In this document: positions 1,752 through 7,214 of the stretch, piece after piece
Numbering within the stretch: position 1 is the stretch's first letter
How the letters are laid out: each line of letters starts with the position of its first letter
Source: Bacillota bacterium
GTDB taxonomy: Bacteria; Bacillota; Clostridia; Eubacteriales; Eubacteriaceae
Length of the DNA: 41,000 nucleotides
Assembly (NCBI GenBank): GCA_018903255.1
Contig: JAHIQT010000183.1
Location: 1 to 41,000, forward strand
Direction of reading: 5' to 3'
Notes under the pieces: generated by a model
What the model was told of the DNA's origin: nothing
What the model saw: only the letters and a program-made list of their open reading frames with translations
The model's database searches: none
Program-made: the position numbers and the translations under genes

Positions 1752-1976
1752 ATGAGTCTGAAACATAAGGTGTCAATTAGTATTGCACAACCTGACGGTA
1801 GAACATCTTCCGTTATTAAAAGTGGGTCAATGCAGATTCGCAACAAATTGTTAAAATTTTTGTTTGGCGAAAAAGTAAACGTGCTGGTACTCACGCCCGG
1901 AGATTCGGTTGAAACGGTGGAAATCCATCAGATAGGAGGAGGTAAAGGCCATGAGTCGAACAAGACTACTGCTTGA
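1752..1976 (+). CDS. Small hypothetical phage early protein
   Basis: A 74-residue protein beginning MSLKHKVSISIAQPDGR. The start is set by AAAGGAG about eight bases upstream of ATG 1752. The alternating hydrophobic pattern in the middle and the segment KLLKFLFGEKVNVLVLTPGD suggest a compact, beta-rich fold. No catalytic motif is visible and I do not recognise the family. It overlaps the next gene by 26 bases and is the first gene of the DNA-replication operon, directly under RNA element A. A role in replication or its regulation is possible from position alone. Confidence 0.7.
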   Translation: MSLKHKVSISIAQPDGRTSSVIKSGSMQIRNKLLKFLFGEKVNVLVLTPGDSVETVEIHQIGGGKGHESNKTTA

Positions 1977-2277
1977 CGTTATTTCCGATGTCCGATCCCT
2001 AGCAGACAGCTTACAGGCGGTTGTTGATGCGATGCTGGAAAATGAGCCAGTTGAAGTGGCAAGTCAAGCTGTTCCTGCGGAAGAACCGATCGTTGAGAAT
2101 TTCGAAGAACCGGCAGAAATCAAAATGGAAGATGTGAGAGCGGTGCTCGCTGACAAATCCCGCATGGGCCATACTGCATCCGTAAGAGAACTACTGACGA
2201 AGTACGGGGCATCCAAGCTGTCGGAGATCGATCCAGAAAAATATCCGGCGCTGCTAAAAGATGCGGAGTTGCTCTAA
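1951..2277 (+). CDS. Small helical phage protein, often mislabelled rRNA biogenesis protein
   Basis: 108 residues. The N-terminal half is a helix followed by a long acidic, Glu/Pro-rich linker. The C-terminal part (about residues 60-108) is a helical domain containing VRAVLADKSRMGHTASVREL and KYGASKLSEIDPEKYPALL. Such sequences are widespread just upstream of DUF2800 genes in Firmicutes phages and are often annotated rRNA biogenesis protein Rrp5 without support. The start has a strong AGGAGGAGG site. The TAA stop overlaps the ATG of the nuclease gene, so translation is coupled. It is probably an accessory to the DUF2800/DUF2815 recombination proteins; the function is unproven. Confidence 0.75.
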   Translation: MSRTRLLLDVISDVRSLADSLQAVVDAMLENEPVEVASQAVPAEEPIVENFEEPAEIKMEDVRAVLADKSRMGHTASVRELLTKYGASKLSEIDPEKYPALLKDAELL

Positions 2278-3443
2278 TGAAAAAGCAAAAAGTAATCAAT
2301 GACAGAAGCACACAGCCTGCAGAGCCAGGTCATGCCTTATTATCGGCATCATCAAGCCATCGATGGATCCGATGTCCGCCATCGGCCAGACTCTGTGAAA
2401 ATTTCGAAGATAAGGGCAGTGACTACGCAAAACAGGGAAGTGAAGCCCACAGCCTTTGCCAGTTTAAACTGGAGTCGATGCTTGGCATGAAAACAACAGA
2501 TCCAACGGCAGATCTTTCTTTTTACGATGAGGAAATGGAAAACTGTGCCGAAAATTATGCCCTCTATGTGATGGAACAGGTGGCCAAAGCCAAAGAAACC
2601 TGCTCCGATCCGGTGGTATTAATTGAACATCGACTGGATTTTAGCAGGTGGGTCGAGTCAGGCTTCGGCACTGGCGACTGTGTCATTATCGCAGACGGTA
2701 CATTATCCGTAATTGACTATAAGCACGGAAAAGGAATCCTAGTGGAAGCCGAGAACAACCCACAAATGCTCTGTTATTCACTTGGGGCAGTCGAGTTATT
2801 TGATGGTATTTTTGATTTTGACACCATCAACACTATAATTTACCAGCCGAGACGGGAAAACATCAGCATCGATACGTTGTCGAAAGCTGAACTGCTACAG
2901 TGGGCCGACGATGTTCTTGCTCCAGCCGCCCGACTGGCCAATAAAGGCGACGGTGAATTTGAATCTGGAGAACACTGCTATTTCTGTAAGGCAAAAGCGA
3001 CCTGCAGAAAACGTGCCGAAAACAATATGGAACTGGCCCGTTATGATTTTGAGAAGCCTGCCACCCTGGAAGATGAAGAAATTGAAGCCATTCTTCTCAA
3101 AGTGGATGATCTGGTGTCCTGGGCATCGGACATCAAGGCATTTGCACTACAAGCTGCAATTTCTGGTAAAGAATGGGCAGGCTGGAAACTGGTCGAAGGC
3201 CGAGCCAACCGCAAATATATCGATGAAACGGTAGTTGCGGATGCGGTTGTTGCAGCTGGGGTTAACCCCTATGAACAGAAACTACTTGGTATAACCGCCA
3301 TGACATCTGCACTTGGTAAGAAGCAATTTGAAGAAGTCCTCGGTCAGCTCGTCTGCCGGCCCCAGGGTAAACCAACACTCGCGCCGGAGAGTGACAAGCG
3401 ACCGGCAATGAATACAGCCAAAAATGATTTTATAGAAGAATAG
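2277..3443 (+). CDS. DUF2800 family Cas4/RecB-like PD-(D/E)XK nuclease
   Basis: 388 residues. A PD-(D/E)XK core is visible around residues 133-170: FGTGDCVIIADG, then VIDYKHGKGI and AENNPQMLCY, giving the Asp, Asp-x-Lys and Gln of the RecB subgroup. A cysteine pair in the N-terminal region (WIRCPPSARLC) and a C-terminal cluster CYFCKAKATCRKRA resemble the ligands that hold the iron-sulfur cluster in Cas4- and AddB-type nucleases. It lies between the small helical protein and the SSB-like DUF2815 protein, an order typical of phage recombination modules. A single-strand exonuclease role feeding homologous recombination is likely. Length and domains look complete. Confidence 0.88.
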   Translation: MKKQKVINDRSTQPAEPGHALLSASSSHRWIRCPPSARLCENFEDKGSDYAKQGSEAHSLCQFKLESMLGMKTTDPTADLSFYDEEMENCAENYALYVMEQVAKAKETCSDPVVLIEHRLDFSRWVESGFGTGDCVIIADGTLSVIDYKHGKGILVEAENNPQMLCYSLGAVELFDGIFDFDTINTIIYQPRRENISIDTLSKAELLQWADDVLAPAARLANKGDGEFESGEHCYFCKAKATCRKRAENNMELARYDFEKPATLEDEEIEAILLKVDDLVSWASDIKAFALQAAISGKEWAGWKLVEGRANRKYIDETVVADAVVAAGVNPYEQKLLGITAMTSALGKKQFEEVLGQLVCRPQGKPTLAPESDKRPAMNTAKNDFIEE

Positions 3444-3455
3444 GAGAAAAATATT

Positions 3456-4025
3456 ATGTCAAATGTAAAAAATGTAAATCCCATGAAAGTAATTACCGGA
3501 CCCGACACCCGTTGGAGTTATGCGAACGTCTGGGAGCCAAAGAGCATTAATGGCGGCACACCGAAGTACAGTGTCAGCGTCATTATTCCGAAGTCAGACA
3601 CAAAAACCGTGACAAAAATTAAAGTCGCGATTGAAGCAGCTTACAAGGAAGGTGAATCTAAACTGAAGGGAACGGGGAGAAGCGTTCCGGCGTTATCAGT
3701 TCTAAAGACACCACTTAGAGACGGCGATACTGAAAGACCCGATGATCCCGCCTATGAAAACTGCTATTTCCTGAATGCTAACAGTACCACTGCTCCCGGC
3801 ATCGTGGATGCTGATCGCCAGGAAATCATCGACCGTTCTGAAGTCTATAGTGGCGTTTATGGTCGGGCGAGTATAAACTTTTATGCATTCAATACCAACG
3901 GTAATAAAGGCATTGCCTGTAACTTGAATAATCTGCAGAAGATTAAAGATGGGGAAAATCTTGGCGGGAAATCACGAGCTGAGGACGATTTCGCAACCCA
4001 AGACGATGATGACTTCCTGGCTTAA
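3456..4025 (+). CDS. DUF2815 single-stranded DNA-binding protein (SSB-like)
   Basis: 189 residues matching the DUF2815 pattern: an N-terminal strand region with GPDTRWSYANVWEPK and YSVSVIIPKSD, a central YENCYFLNANST segment, and VYSGVYGRASINFYAFN. The protein ends in an acidic tail DDFATQDDDDFLA like those of SSB and T7 gp2.5, which recruit partner proteins. It follows the DUF2800 nuclease after 12 bases with an AGGAGAAA site. The likely role is to coat single-stranded DNA during phage replication and recombination. Confidence 0.85.
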   Translation: MSNVKNVNPMKVITGPDTRWSYANVWEPKSINGGTPKYSVSVIIPKSDTKTVTKIKVAIEAAYKEGESKLKGTGRSVPALSVLKTPLRDGDTERPDDPAYENCYFLNANSTTAPGIVDADRQEIIDRSEVYSGVYGRASINFYAFNTNGNKGIACNLNNLQKIKDGENLGGKSRAEDDFATQDDDDFLA

Positions 4026-4275: not shown

Positions 4276-4304
4276 TTTGTTTATAAAAGGACGGAGATTT
4301 GGAA

Positions 4305-7214
4305 ATGAAAAATTTATCAATTGATATTGAGTCGTTCTCTGATGTGGACTTGTCAAAAGGTGGTGTATACAAATATTCAGAGTCACCAAATTTTGACATT
4401 CTGCTTTTCGGATATGCGATGGATGGCGGCGAGGTCCAGGTGGTTGATCTGGCCAGTGGTGAAGAAATACCCCCAGAAGTGATTGCCGCACTGGTGGATG
4501 ATACCGTGATTAAATGGGCCTTCAATAGTCAGTTTGAGCGGGTCTGCCTGTCGGTATGGCTGAGACGGAATTATCCCCAGGATTTTTGCAGCTACAGTAT
4601 TGCAGCCGATACAGTCAGGGGTTATCTGGATCCGTCGGCATGGCGATGTACGATGGTCTGGTCTGCCTACATGGGGTTGCCACTGTCGCTGGAAAGGGTT
4701 GGTGCAGTGCTGGGTCTGGAAGATCAGAAGCTGAAGGAAGGAAAAGATCTGATCCGGTATTTCTGTATGCCATGTAAAAGTACCAAAGCAAATAGCGGTC
4801 GTACTCGCAATTTACCGGAACATGATCAAGAAAAATGGAAACGATTTTCGAACTATAATCGGCGTGACGTTGAGGTAGAGATAGCCATTCAGAAAAAACT
4901 GACTAAGACCCCTGTGCCTGATTTTGTCTGGGATGAGTATCATCTTGATCAGGAAATCAATGACCGGGGTATTGCCCTTGATATGACCTTTGTCAAACAG
5001 GCGATTGCGATTGATCAGCTATCTCGAGAAAAGCTGACAATACAGATGCAGGCACTCACCAATCTGGATAACCCCAATTCAGTCCAGCAGATGAAAAGTT
5101 GGCTGGCGGATAAGGGGCTGGAAACCGATACACTTGGGAAAAAAGCGGTCACTGAGATGCTAAAAACGGCTCCGGATCAGTTGGCAGAAGTGCTTTCGCT
5201 GCGTCAGCAACTGGCTAAATCCTCGGTGAAAAAATACCAGGCCATGCACCATGCGGTTTGCGAGGATAGCCGGGTCCGGGGAACTTTTCAATTCTGCGGC
5301 GCTAACCGGACGGGACGATGGGCGGGTCGCCTGATCCAGCTGCAAAACCTTCCCCAGAACCACATCCCAGACCTGGAACAGGCGCGCGCCCTGGTTCGAA
5401 GCGGAAATGAGGATGCACTTTCAATGCTTTATCATTCAGTGCCGGAAGTACTATCAGAACTGATTCGGACGGCCTTTATTCCACGAGATGGCATGAAGTT
5501 TATTGTTGCCGATTTCTCAGCGATTGAAGCAAGAGTTCTATCCTGGCTGGCGGGTGAAAGTTGGCGGATGGATGTTTTTGCAGATAACGGGGACATCTAT
5601 TGTGCGACCGCATCAAAGATGTTTCACTGCAACGTGGTCAAACATGGCGAAAATAGTGAACTCCGTCAGAAAGGGAAGCAAGCCGAGTTAGCCTGTATTG
5701 CAGAAGGGCAACTTGTCTTAACGAATGATGGTCTGGTGCCGATCGAAAAGATTTTAATCGATCATAAACTTTGGGATGGTGAAAAATGGGTGAGTCATGA
5801 AGGAGTAGTTTTCAAAGGAGAAAGAGAGGTCATAACCTATGACGGTCTTACAGCAACCGCAGACCACCTTGTGTGGGTTGAGGGGCAATCGCAGCCGATA
5901 CAATTTGGAATCGCCGCCGCCAGCGGCGCACATCTCATACAAACCGGAGATTGTGGGACAGCAATTCGGTTGGGTGAAGATTATTTCATCCGAGAAACGA
6001 TGGAACAAAAAAATGAATCATTGTTATGTGCTGACCCAGTGTACCGGCTGCGGAAGCATTCAGTGGCAGCTGTATTGCAATTTAAAAAGCGGGAAATCGA
6101 AAGGATGTCAAAGTTGTTCTCAGCCAAGGCAGATTCCGTTCTGGTTGGATCGAAGACTTGCGGCAGCAAAACAACGATGCGAAAATCCAAACGATGGAGG
6201 TTATCACAATTACGGTGCGAGAGGAATAAAATTCGCTTTTACAAGTGTTACCGAAGCCGGTCTTTATTTAATAAAAACATTTGGCTTGCCACCAAAAGAG
6301 CTAGAAATCGACCGGATCAACAACGATCTGGATTATGCACCAGGCAATCTTCGTTTTGTGACACATTTGGAAAACAACCAAAACAAAAGGTGTACGGTGC
6401 TCAGCCATTTTTCTCAGGAATATTGGCCTTATGTAAGAAATGTGGTCGTTCGCAAATTATCGGTCGGATTAAGCAGGGACGAAATAATCCAGGGAGCCGA
6501 AACAGCAGTATTCGAAAAAAGAAAAAATTGGAAATTGATCAGCGCAAGGCTCGACTTTATGACATACGAAATGCCGGATCACATCACCGTTTTACCGTAT
6601 CGGGAAAACTCGTCCACAACTGCGGGTATGGCGGATCAGTCGGCGCACTAAAAGCAATGGGTGCTCTTGAGCTCGGTATGAAAGAGGAAGAATTAAAGCC
6701 GCTGGTTGATGCCTGGCGTCAGGCCAATCCCAACATCGTCCGTTTCTGGTGGGCGGTGGATCGTGCGGTAAAAATATGCATCAAACAAAAAATCCCAACC
6801 GAGACCCATGGTATTTACTTTTCTTATCAGAGTGGGTTTTTATTTATCACCCTTCCTTCCGGCAGAAAACTGGCATATGTAAAACCCCGTATCGGTGAGA
6901 ATCGCTTTGGCGGTGAGTCGGTGACCTATGAAGGGGTGGGTGGCACAAAGAAATGGGAGCGGATTGAGAGTTATGGGCCAAAGTTTGTTGAGAATATCGT
7001 CCAGGCAATCAGCCGGGATATTTTGGCCGAAGCGATGACAAGACTCCGATATTGTTTTATTGTGGCCCATGTCCATGATGAAATTATTATTGAGGCGGAT
7101 ATGCGTATGTCTCTTTTAGCCATCTGTAAGCAAATGGCAAAAACACCGTTCTGGGCTAAGGGACTGCTGCTTCATGCCGAGGGTTATGAATGCAGTTTTT
7201 ATAAAAAAGATTAA
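4305..7214 (+). CDS. Phage family-A DNA polymerase interrupted by an intein
   Basis: The precursor is 969 residues. The mature polymerase would be about 660, the usual size for phage family-A enzymes without a 5' nuclease domain. The N-terminal 3'-5' exonuclease has the DIE signature (Asp7, Glu9). Polymerase motif A is VADFSAIEARVLSWLAGE (Asp403). Motif B (RQKGKQAELA, residues 454-463) is broken after Ala463 by an intein and resumes at CGYGGSVGALKAMG. Motif C is VHDEIIIEA near the C-terminus. ATG 4305 is chosen because GGACGGAG lies eight bases upstream; a TTG at 4299 is too close. Splicing must occur for activity because the intein sits in the template-binding helix. It replicates the phage genome with the VapE primase-helicase and DUF2815 protein. 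Confidence 0.92.
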   Translation: MKNLSIDIESFSDVDLSKGGVYKYSESPNFDILLFGYAMDGGEVQVVDLASGEEIPPEVIAALVDDTVIKWAFNSQFERVCLSVWLRRNYPQDFCSYSIAADTVRGYLDPSAWRCTMVWSAYMGLPLSLERVGAVLGLEDQKLKEGKDLIRYFCMPCKSTKANSGRTRNLPEHDQEKWKRFSNYNRRDVEVEIAIQKKLTKTPVPDFVWDEYHLDQEINDRGIALDMTFVKQAIAIDQLSREKLTIQMQALTNLDNPNSVQQMKSWLADKGLETDTLGKKAVTEMLKTAPDQLAEVLSLRQQLAKSSVKKYQAMHHAVCEDSRVRGTFQFCGANRTGRWAGRLIQLQNLPQNHIPDLEQARALVRSGNEDALSMLYHSVPEVLSELIRTAFIPRDGMKFIVADFSAIEARVLSWLAGESWRMDVFADNGDIYCATASKMFHCNVVKHGENSELRQKGKQAELACIAEGQLVLTNDGLVPIEKILIDHKLWDGEKWVSHEGVVFKGEREVITYDGLTATADHLVWVEGQSQPIQFGIAAASGAHLIQTGDCGTAIRLGEDYFIRETMEQKNESLLCADPVYRLRKHSVAAVLQFKKREIERMSKLFSAKADSVLVGSKTCGSKTTMRKSKRWRLSQLRCERNKIRFYKCYRSRSLFNKNIWLATKRARNRPDQQRSGLCTRQSSFCDTFGKQPKQKVYGAQPFFSGILALCKKCGRSQIIGRIKQGRNNPGSRNSSIRKKKKLEIDQRKARLYDIRNAGSHHRFTVSGKLVHNCGYGGSVGALKAMGALELGMKEEELKPLVDAWRQANPNIVRFWWAVDRAVKICIKQKIPTETHGIYFSYQSGFLFITLPSGRKLAYVKPRIGENRFGGESVTYEGVGGTKKWERIESYGPKFVENIVQAISRDILAEAMTRLRYCFIVAHVHDEIIIEADMRMSLLAICKQMAKTPFWAKGLLLHAEGYECSFYKKD
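5694..6620 (+). mobile_element. Intein in polymerase motif B (309 residues)
   Basis: The intein starts with Cys (codon 5694-5696) in CIAEGQLVLTNDGLVPIEKI, a clear block A. Block B is TYDGLTATADHLVW with the expected Thr and His. Block F is ARLYDIRNAG...HHRFTVSGKLVHN, ending in Asn at 6618-6620, and Cys is the +1 extein residue. All residues needed for class 1 splicing (Cys1, block B His, terminal His-Asn, Cys+1) are present. The middle (about residues 60-270 of the intein) contains no LAGLIDADG or HNH motif in this frame and is rich in Arg, Lys, Ser and Cys, as if it were the shadow of another gene. That other frame carries the HNH gene at 5839-6651. Confidence 0.88.
5839..6651 (+). CDS. HNH homing endonuclease nested in the intein in a different frame
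   Basis: This frame is offset by one base from the polymerase/intein frame, which stays open throughout. It encodes a complete phage-type HNH protein. There is a VGQQFGWVKIISS entry strand, a zinc-type CTGC...CQSC pair, then KQRCENPNDGGYHNYGARGI, ELEIDRINNDLDYAPGNLRF and ENNQNKRC. A C-terminal DNA-binding part contains EYWPYVRNVVVRKLSVGLSR. The motif order matches HNH nucleases of the I-HmuI/AP2-HNH type, with Asp-Arg in place of the usual Asp-His. AGAGG nine bases before ATG 5839 could support independent initiation. The gene overruns the intein by 31 bases into the C-extein. It probably promotes homing of the intein. Confidence 0.75.
   Translation: MTVLQQPQTTLCGLRGNRSRYNLESPPPAAHISYKPEIVGQQFGWVKIISSEKRWNKKMNHCYVLTQCTGCGSIQWQLYCNLKSGKSKGCQSCSQPRQIPFWLDRRLAAAKQRCENPNDGGYHNYGARGIKFAFTSVTEAGLYLIKTFGLPPKELEIDRINNDLDYAPGNLRFVTHLENNQNKRCTVLSHFSQEYWPYVRNVVVRKLSVGLSRDEIIQGAETAVFEKRKNWKLISARLDFMTYEMPDHITVLPYRENSSTTAGMADQSAH

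Follow-up and report, generated by a model that had tools for sequence, protein, structure and literature searches.

A probable HNH-type homing endonuclease gene written out of frame over the intein of a prophage-type DNA polymerase

A total of 41,000 nucleotides from a Bacillota bacterium (contig JAHIQT010000183.1, positions 1 to 41,000; hereafter the window) was analyzed with respect to a family A DNA polymerase gene of prophage type, which carries an intein in motif B and, over this intein, a second open reading frame. The locus is probably to be understood as an intein over which a distinct gene, for an HNH-type homing endonuclease, has been written. As judged from the sequences of relatives, the out-of-frame position of the HNH is the usual design across a large phage intein family, the window included. 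Codon-position rates and recoding indicate selection on both frames close to either end of the overlap, on the HNH frame alone in its middle, and against stop codons in the intein frame. The features concerned are as follows.

4299-7214, + strand: open reading frame (ORF) of a family A DNA polymerase, the host gene (stop-free frame; Pfam DNA_pol_A, E 9.9e-19; PHROG DNA polymerase, E 8.1e-135)
4299-5693 and 6621-7214, + strand: exteins of the polymerase
5694-6620, + strand: intein of 309 residues in motif B (AELA/C...HN/CGYGG), assigned from its splicing residues, its relatives and a model compared with solved inteins
5839-6651, + strand: nested HNH-type gene of 270 residues, in frame +1 relative to the polymerase (stop-free frame; PHROG HNH, E 6.6e-21; frame and conservation in relatives)
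5825-5829, + strand: AGAGG, likely Shine-Dalgarno (SD) site of the nested gene (sequence; SD-like run in relatives)
6040-6117, + strand: four-cysteine CxxC...CxxC zinc-type motif of the HNH product, C68, C71, C90 and C93 (conserved; presumed to bind zinc)
6310-6384, + strand: HNH-type motif region, D158-R159 ... N170 ... N182 (conserved)

The intein and the nested frame

The polymerase frame runs uninterrupted from 4299 to 7214, intein included, and a split state of the intein is thereby ruled out for the window. The insertion point lies in motif B, flanked by KQAELA and CGYGG. The residues of a class 1 intein (Cys1, block B TxxH, a His-Asn end and a +1 Cys) are in frame with both exteins, as the first-pass annotation of this DNA had claimed, and are kept in the aligned relatives; in the window they are Cys1 at 5694-5696, TADH at 5856-5867, HN at 6615-6620 and the +1 Cys at 6621-6623. 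An AlphaFold2 model of the intein was confident at residues 1-94 and 281-309 and disordered at 95-280. Its best PDB matches by Foldseek were inteins, for instance NpuDnaE (probability 1.00, E 1.8e-3), and a HINT splicing fold is predicted to be present. By its residues and predicted fold the insert at 5694-6620 is assigned to the class-1-type inteins, and it is predicted to splice. A Pfam scan of the intein frame gave a single match at chance level (E 0.16), in agreement with the earlier statement that no endonuclease motif is present in that frame.

The HNH frame, shifted by one base, is stop-free from 5836 to 6648, with an ATG at 5839, AGAGG standing nine bases upstream of it, and a stop codon at 6649-6651, 31 bases beyond the intein end; the third frame of the region contains many stops. 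Signals, extent and the opening of both frames for about 800 bases were thus as first described. The product matched the PHROG HNH endonucleases (phrog_374, E 6.6e-21), and its AlphaFold2 model had a mean pLDDT of 87, low mainly in the first 20 and the last approximately 20 residues. Among 53 aligned relatives C68, C71, C93, R159 and N170 are invariant, and C90, D158 and N182 are at least 90% conserved.

A pattern scan of genome contigs yielded one locus, in an Acetobacterium metagenome-assembled genome with 94% identity in the intein frame; the patterns had been drawn from the unconserved middle of the intein, a poor choice. The window itself is placed on contig 142 of its genome, and the gene order surrounding the polymerase reads like a prophage replication module.

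Reading frames and constraint among the relatives

Three kinds of query, namely the HNH product, the N-intein and the intein, served to gather the relatives. The first HNH search began from the out-of-frame product and was hence biased toward out-of-frame cases, a bias offset by later searches with the N-intein only and by an HNH profile rebuilt from all three frames. From two of the N-intein searches the best 80 of 511 and the best 80 of 293 relatives were taken, and from another search the best 80 of 529. Two loci that have lost the N-intein (L002 and L094) were excluded by hand. The first set consisted of 102 distinct inteins, 97 of them complete, with the HNH in frame +1 in 69 (three being HNH remnants of 32 to 63 profile positions), in +2 in 10, absent in 18 and in frame 0 in none. 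For an extended set, 332 N-intein hits were collapsed at 93% identity, measured across their initial 700 bases, which left 216; two hits with partial starts were omitted. Here 204 inteins were complete (120 with HNH in +1, 62 in +2, 22 without HNH, none in frame 0), five reached contig ends and seven were flagged; among the flagged loci L030 was whole by eye, L387 was whole with the extein stopping a few codons later, and five were split.

Altogether the HNH was detected in 192 of the 216 relatives (127 in +1 and 65 in +2), and among HNHs detectable by the profile of this family none lies in the intein's own frame. The nested frame is therefore not a frameshift artefact, and relatives with the HNH in the polymerase frame, which the first-pass annotation had named as contrary evidence, were looked for and none was found. 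A profile of this kind, tried on ShiLan gp65 as a positive control, picked up the HNH hidden there in frame +2 (E 3.9e-7). Streptococcus phages Javan113 and Javan255 and Gardnerella phage AB1, which were sequenced separately, share the out-of-frame HNH. On the HNH tree the distribution of +1 and +2 frames needs two changes on the best tree, a single change being also conceivable. One of the HNH-less loci, L101, reads as an intein with an in-frame LAGLIDADG-like domain.

The number of stop codons to be expected in the intein frame was predicted by synonymous recoding of each HNH region. For the window, none of 2000 recodings left the intein frame stop-free (on average 14.7 or 12.9 stops, according to codon usage), and the real third frame holds 12 stops. 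In 76 loci of the first set no intein-frame stop was found against 722 or 573 expected by codon usage, while the third frame holds 794. Contiguous inteins of the extended set gave 0 against 823 expected (116 loci, +1) and 0 against 251 (61 loci, +2), these counts covering 177 of the 182 complete HNH-bearing inteins after HNH matches of fewer than 100 profile positions were left out. Contiguity was an entry condition for the counts, yet the five loci of the first set that were not complete comprise four contig ends and L030. The five split relatives, in contrast, carry 62 intein-frame stops against 58 expected. Stops are therefore excluded only where translation must run through.

Substitution rates were estimated from 19 distinct inteins of equal length, whose 166 pairs share 50-70% identity across the HNH core. 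At polymerase codon positions 1, 2 and 3 the rates were.28,.16 and.62 before the ATG, and.27,.15 and.35 from the ATG to the HNH core, the third-position rate falling on entry into the overlap. Within the core they were.60,.33 and.25, the changes concentrating at HNH third positions, and they were.23,.14 and.32 in the intein C domain and.425,.36 and.67 in the extein. In a two-way test with 168 pairs, one frame was recoded and the identity of the other was watched. The identity of the HNH frame was.315 against.292 recoded before the ATG,.554 against.292 after it,.626 against.264 in the core and.596 against.284 in the C domain (160 of 168 pairs); 300 bases of extein, taken as negative control, gave.227 against.209. 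That of the intein frame was.642 against.277 after the ATG and.763 against.401 in the C domain (168 of 168 pairs), and in the core.299 against.277, a small excess (136 of 168 pairs) that may reflect unsaturated sites or weak constraint. Three zones are thus distinguished, the outer two serving two proteins and the middle one serving the HNH.

5838-5945, + strand: N-side dual-coding zone, intein block B side and HNH N-terminus (both frames above the recoding nulls, 168 of 168 pairs; drop in third-position rate)
5946-6527, + strand: HNH core, with the intein frame as near-neutral stop-free filler (substitutions at HNH third positions; intein frame 0.299 against 0.277)
6543-6620, + strand: C-side dual-coding zone, C-terminal splicing blocks of the intein and HNH tail (both frames above recoded)

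The earlier proposal that two proteins are constrained at once accordingly applies to roughly 108 bases on the N side and 78 bases on the C side, but does not extend through the entire overlap. When translated in the intein frame, the HNH core of the window (about 5947-6493) is strongly basic, with a net charge of +29 over 182 residues; the mean net charge of the same region in relatives is +10 in the +1 group and +3.5 in the +2 group.

Start signals, mobility and fractured forms

In the +1 group the ATG of the HNH frame is formed by the Tyr49 codon and the next codon of the intein, inside block B. This ATG is present in 41 of 67 +1 loci and another, 12 bases upstream, in 11, none having both. 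Tallies of SD and codons cover 66 of the 67 loci. An SD-like run stands at the matching place in 38 of the 40 loci with the Tyr49 ATG compared with 4 of the 26 without (median p 0.06 for the SD-ATG link on the tree). The codon of Glu45, which spells part of the SD-like run, is GAG in 32 of 36 cases (19.2 expected), whereas Glu at residues 1-43 is encoded by GAG in 59 of 180. When the next codon starts with G, the codon of residue 49 ends in T in 40 of 50 cases (20.1 expected); with any other following base it does so in 3 of 9. The nested HNH is thus likely to start at the SD-ATG inside block B; conservation of this start site, the codon-position patterns and the recoding controls all argue for the independent nested gene that had been proposed at first sight.

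With regard to mobility, 80 loci with a close C-extein show the intein end, with a +1 Cys in 79 and Ser in one; these 80 include copies of one contig and loci of the L002 type. In intein-less alleles the +1 position is occupied by Leu in 65, by Cys in 12 and, in L111, by Ser (the script tally of 66 Leu had misassigned L113, and seven further rows were inteins out of register). At the motif B site (L181-L258 and the intein loci) the +1 residue is thus Cys or Ser in intein-bearing alleles and mostly Leu in intein-less ones, and insertion may bring its own +1 Cys. The intein-less allele L181 has 91% identity in the C-extein, and its identity to the window is higher near the site, which may be mere conservation of motif B. 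The same type of intein occurs at several polA sites, in a DEAD-type helicase (L088; ResIII, E 9.2e-22) and in L142, possibly a DnaB-like helicase (E 4.5e-4, under the cut-off). In L058, L080, L143, L162 and L174 two inteins of this type stand close together, often one in motif B and the second near a QAxxRD motif; both inteins of L080 and of L143 contain an out-of-frame HNH.

Inteins without HNH are scattered on the splicing-domain tree (constructed without L100, L101 and L150|1864), with 13 changes on the best tree and at least four forced by well-supported branches, although the tree is based on few columns. One of them, L047, is sister to the HNH-bearing L045 and lacks 555 bases at a 9-base direct repeat, with the intein frame kept; the deletion lies at intein nucleotides 287-295 or thereabouts and the remaining intein has 124 residues. 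Patchy distribution, repeated loss of the HNH and multiple insertion sites altogether suggest that the nested gene would function as a homing endonuclease. In L002 (3452-4768), a relative of the Acetobacterium group, an ORF resembling a sigma factor lies upstream and continues into the HNH frame as one fusion, 439 codons being open, and L118 is arranged likewise. The N-intein start and the N-extein were not found at the L002 locus, and the HNH thus persists there in the absence of its intein.

At the five split loci the ORF of the N-intein ends in a stop, followed by an HNH ORF and then by the C-intein on another ORF with a possible start of its own. Trans-splicing would be expected in these fractured relatives, and single loci among them may represent decay or assembly faults. 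In L278 the ORFs of the fractured intein are 66-1172, 1042-1809 and 1763-3586, and inside the third of them lies another intein, which is contiguous and carries a nested HNH of its own at 2703-3335. One polymerase gene thus shows the fractured and the contiguous nested states side by side. Out-of-frame nesting may be not only a standing design of a broad phage intein family but also a stepping stone to split inteins, a proposal to which we give about an even chance. Once the HNH has its own start in another frame, the middle of the intein would become free filler, and a stop therein would be tolerated after the C-half gains a start.

Alternative explanations and comparison with known systems

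Under the overprinting model, ribosomes in the polymerase frame would make a precursor in which two folded halves of the splicing domain are joined by about 186 disordered residues, this linker being the HNH gene read in the wrong frame. Residues and fold suggest that the precursor would splice itself into intact polymerase. Other ribosomes would start at the SD-ATG in block B, as its conservation indicates, and produce a separate HNH polypeptide, which might cut or nick intein-less polymerase alleles, repair then copying the whole element. Splicing and homing would thereby be separated onto two polypeptides.

Several observations weigh against this model. Pfam HNH_3 gave only E 0.035 against the HNH product (14.2 bits, below the cut-off of 24.8), the HNH profile found no sequence match among PDB chains at E up to 0.1, and Foldseek with the HNH model gave a best E of only 0.27 and no convincing PDB fold match. 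Arg159 occupies what we take to be the position of the usual first, catalytic HNH histidine, and it is Arg in all 53 aligned relatives. The first description of a complete HNH protein is to be corrected in this respect, and the product is named HNH-type, catalysis not being assumed. As to the start, neither common ATG is found in 15 of the 67 +1 loci, and Lys44 has no SD-directed bias (AAG in 15 of 22, 14.4 expected). The start-like codons are retained in HNH-less inteins (TAT in 12 of 12, GAG in 9 of 9), as expected if HNH loss was recent, yet this weakens the argument from start signals. The two alternative ATGs always swap in opposite directions on the tree (apparent compensation, Fisher p 6e-6), but the swap is not significant on seven independent pairs on well-supported branches (median p 0.25), and one HNH-less locus has both ATGs; the swap is accordingly given no weight.

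Some of these points would be accommodated by other explanations. If the nested protein is real but is a DNA-binding protein or a nuclease with another role, the Arg and the Pfam score under the cut-off would be natural; the PHROG match, the strong conservation of the HNH frame, the patchy distribution with intein-less alleles and the repeated HNH loss speak for homing, and we consider such a role unlikely, though to be kept in mind. Programmed ribosomal frameshifting, joining the N-intein to the HNH with no separate start, would agree with two frames open and conserved from the block B ATG on and with the loci lacking both common ATGs. Conservation of the HNH frame, however, begins at the ATG, and the SD-like run tracks the ATG, by the counts given above; no slippery site was sought, and frameshifting is judged to be quite improbable.

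Three further explanations were rejected by the tests of recoding, codon positions, Rfam and relatives' frames. An ordinary in-frame HNH intein with two compensating frameshifts, real or arising in sequencing, is something that the reading of a single genome is unable to exclude, but the frame count in 192 relatives, the design shared by separately sequenced phages and the dual-coding zones at both ends leave it a very small probability, in line with the earlier judgment on sequencing errors. No greater weight attaches to a group I intron with an HNH ORF, the label given to the counterpart in the record of Sodalis phage SO-1: no Rfam group I match was obtained in 5500-6800 of the window at E up to 10, none reached the gathering score in four relatives including SO-1, and the polymerase frame continues without a stop through the insert and includes the residues of an intein. 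An open frame that merely happens to face an HNH-less intein, an explanation with nothing in its favour beyond the single window, is practically negligible in view of the HNH-frame identity in the core, which is well above that found on recoding of the intein frame, the profile match and the confident predicted fold.

Endonuclease-bearing inteins are normally described as in-frame fusions with LAGLIDADG or HNH domains. The window likewise combines a splicing domain and a homing-type endonuclease in one element, but the endonuclease would be a separate polypeptide in another frame instead of a fused one. Fractured genes reportedly consist of split inteins with a homing endonuclease gene between them (Dassa et al. 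2009). The five split relatives, with N-intein, HNH and C-intein on separate ORFs, resemble them, whereas the window and 204 of the 216 relatives are contiguous, the HNH, where present, being nested inside.

The closest published case is the ShiLan element, an insert in a methylase gene that is open in the host frame, contains an out-of-frame HNH and was proposed to home (PMC11855218). Its authors place the HNH in the third frame, in agreement with our +2 profile match, and report that they found neither a splicing domain of whatever kind nor a ribosome binding site close to the HNH. ShiLan and the window have in common that the host frame runs open through the insert while the HNH is read in another frame. 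They differ in that the insert of the window shows the splicing residues and the predicted fold of an intein, and that an SD-like run and an ATG are found in block B of most +1 relatives. What appears to be new here is that an intein is overprinted by a gene for an HNH-type homing endonuclease, probably with translation of its own. Phage Applejack also has an out-of-frame HNH element (PMC12613952), and the paper on Felix O1 dismissed inteins on the ground that none of the HNH genes shared a frame with the adjacent genes. A preprint on actinobacteriophage inteins with non-canonical architecture, cited in PMC11855218, may by its title overlap with the nested design. A literature search covering mainly open-access journal papers listed none on an intein with an out-of-frame endonuclease.

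Among the database records, APSE-1 P45/P46, Sodalis phage SO-1 gp38/gp39 and Salmonella phage Ent1 gp37 share, by our reading of their sequences, the architecture of an out-of-frame HNH in an intein-bearing polymerase, and GenBank names one half of it in each: a nested HNH gene without intein in APSE-1, a group I intron in SO-1, and an intein with splicing domains only in Ent1. The SO-1 locus (L260, 1094-4282), whose polymerase is annotated with a type I self-splicing intron, reads as an intein with the HNH in +2. Inteins of the Ent1 type were matched with at least 80% query coverage in 164 of 185 matching phage records.

These comparisons altogether suggest that in a large family the splicing and the DNA cutting are assigned to two different polypeptides whose coding sequences overlie one another, and because of this arrangement in-frame domain searches miss the endonuclease, as with Ent1 and Felix O1. 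The family would also constitute a natural experiment on overlapping genes, in which stops are absent while continuity is needed and are back once it is not. With contiguous, HNH-less and fractured forms all at hand, it may offer a possible path from contiguous to split inteins.

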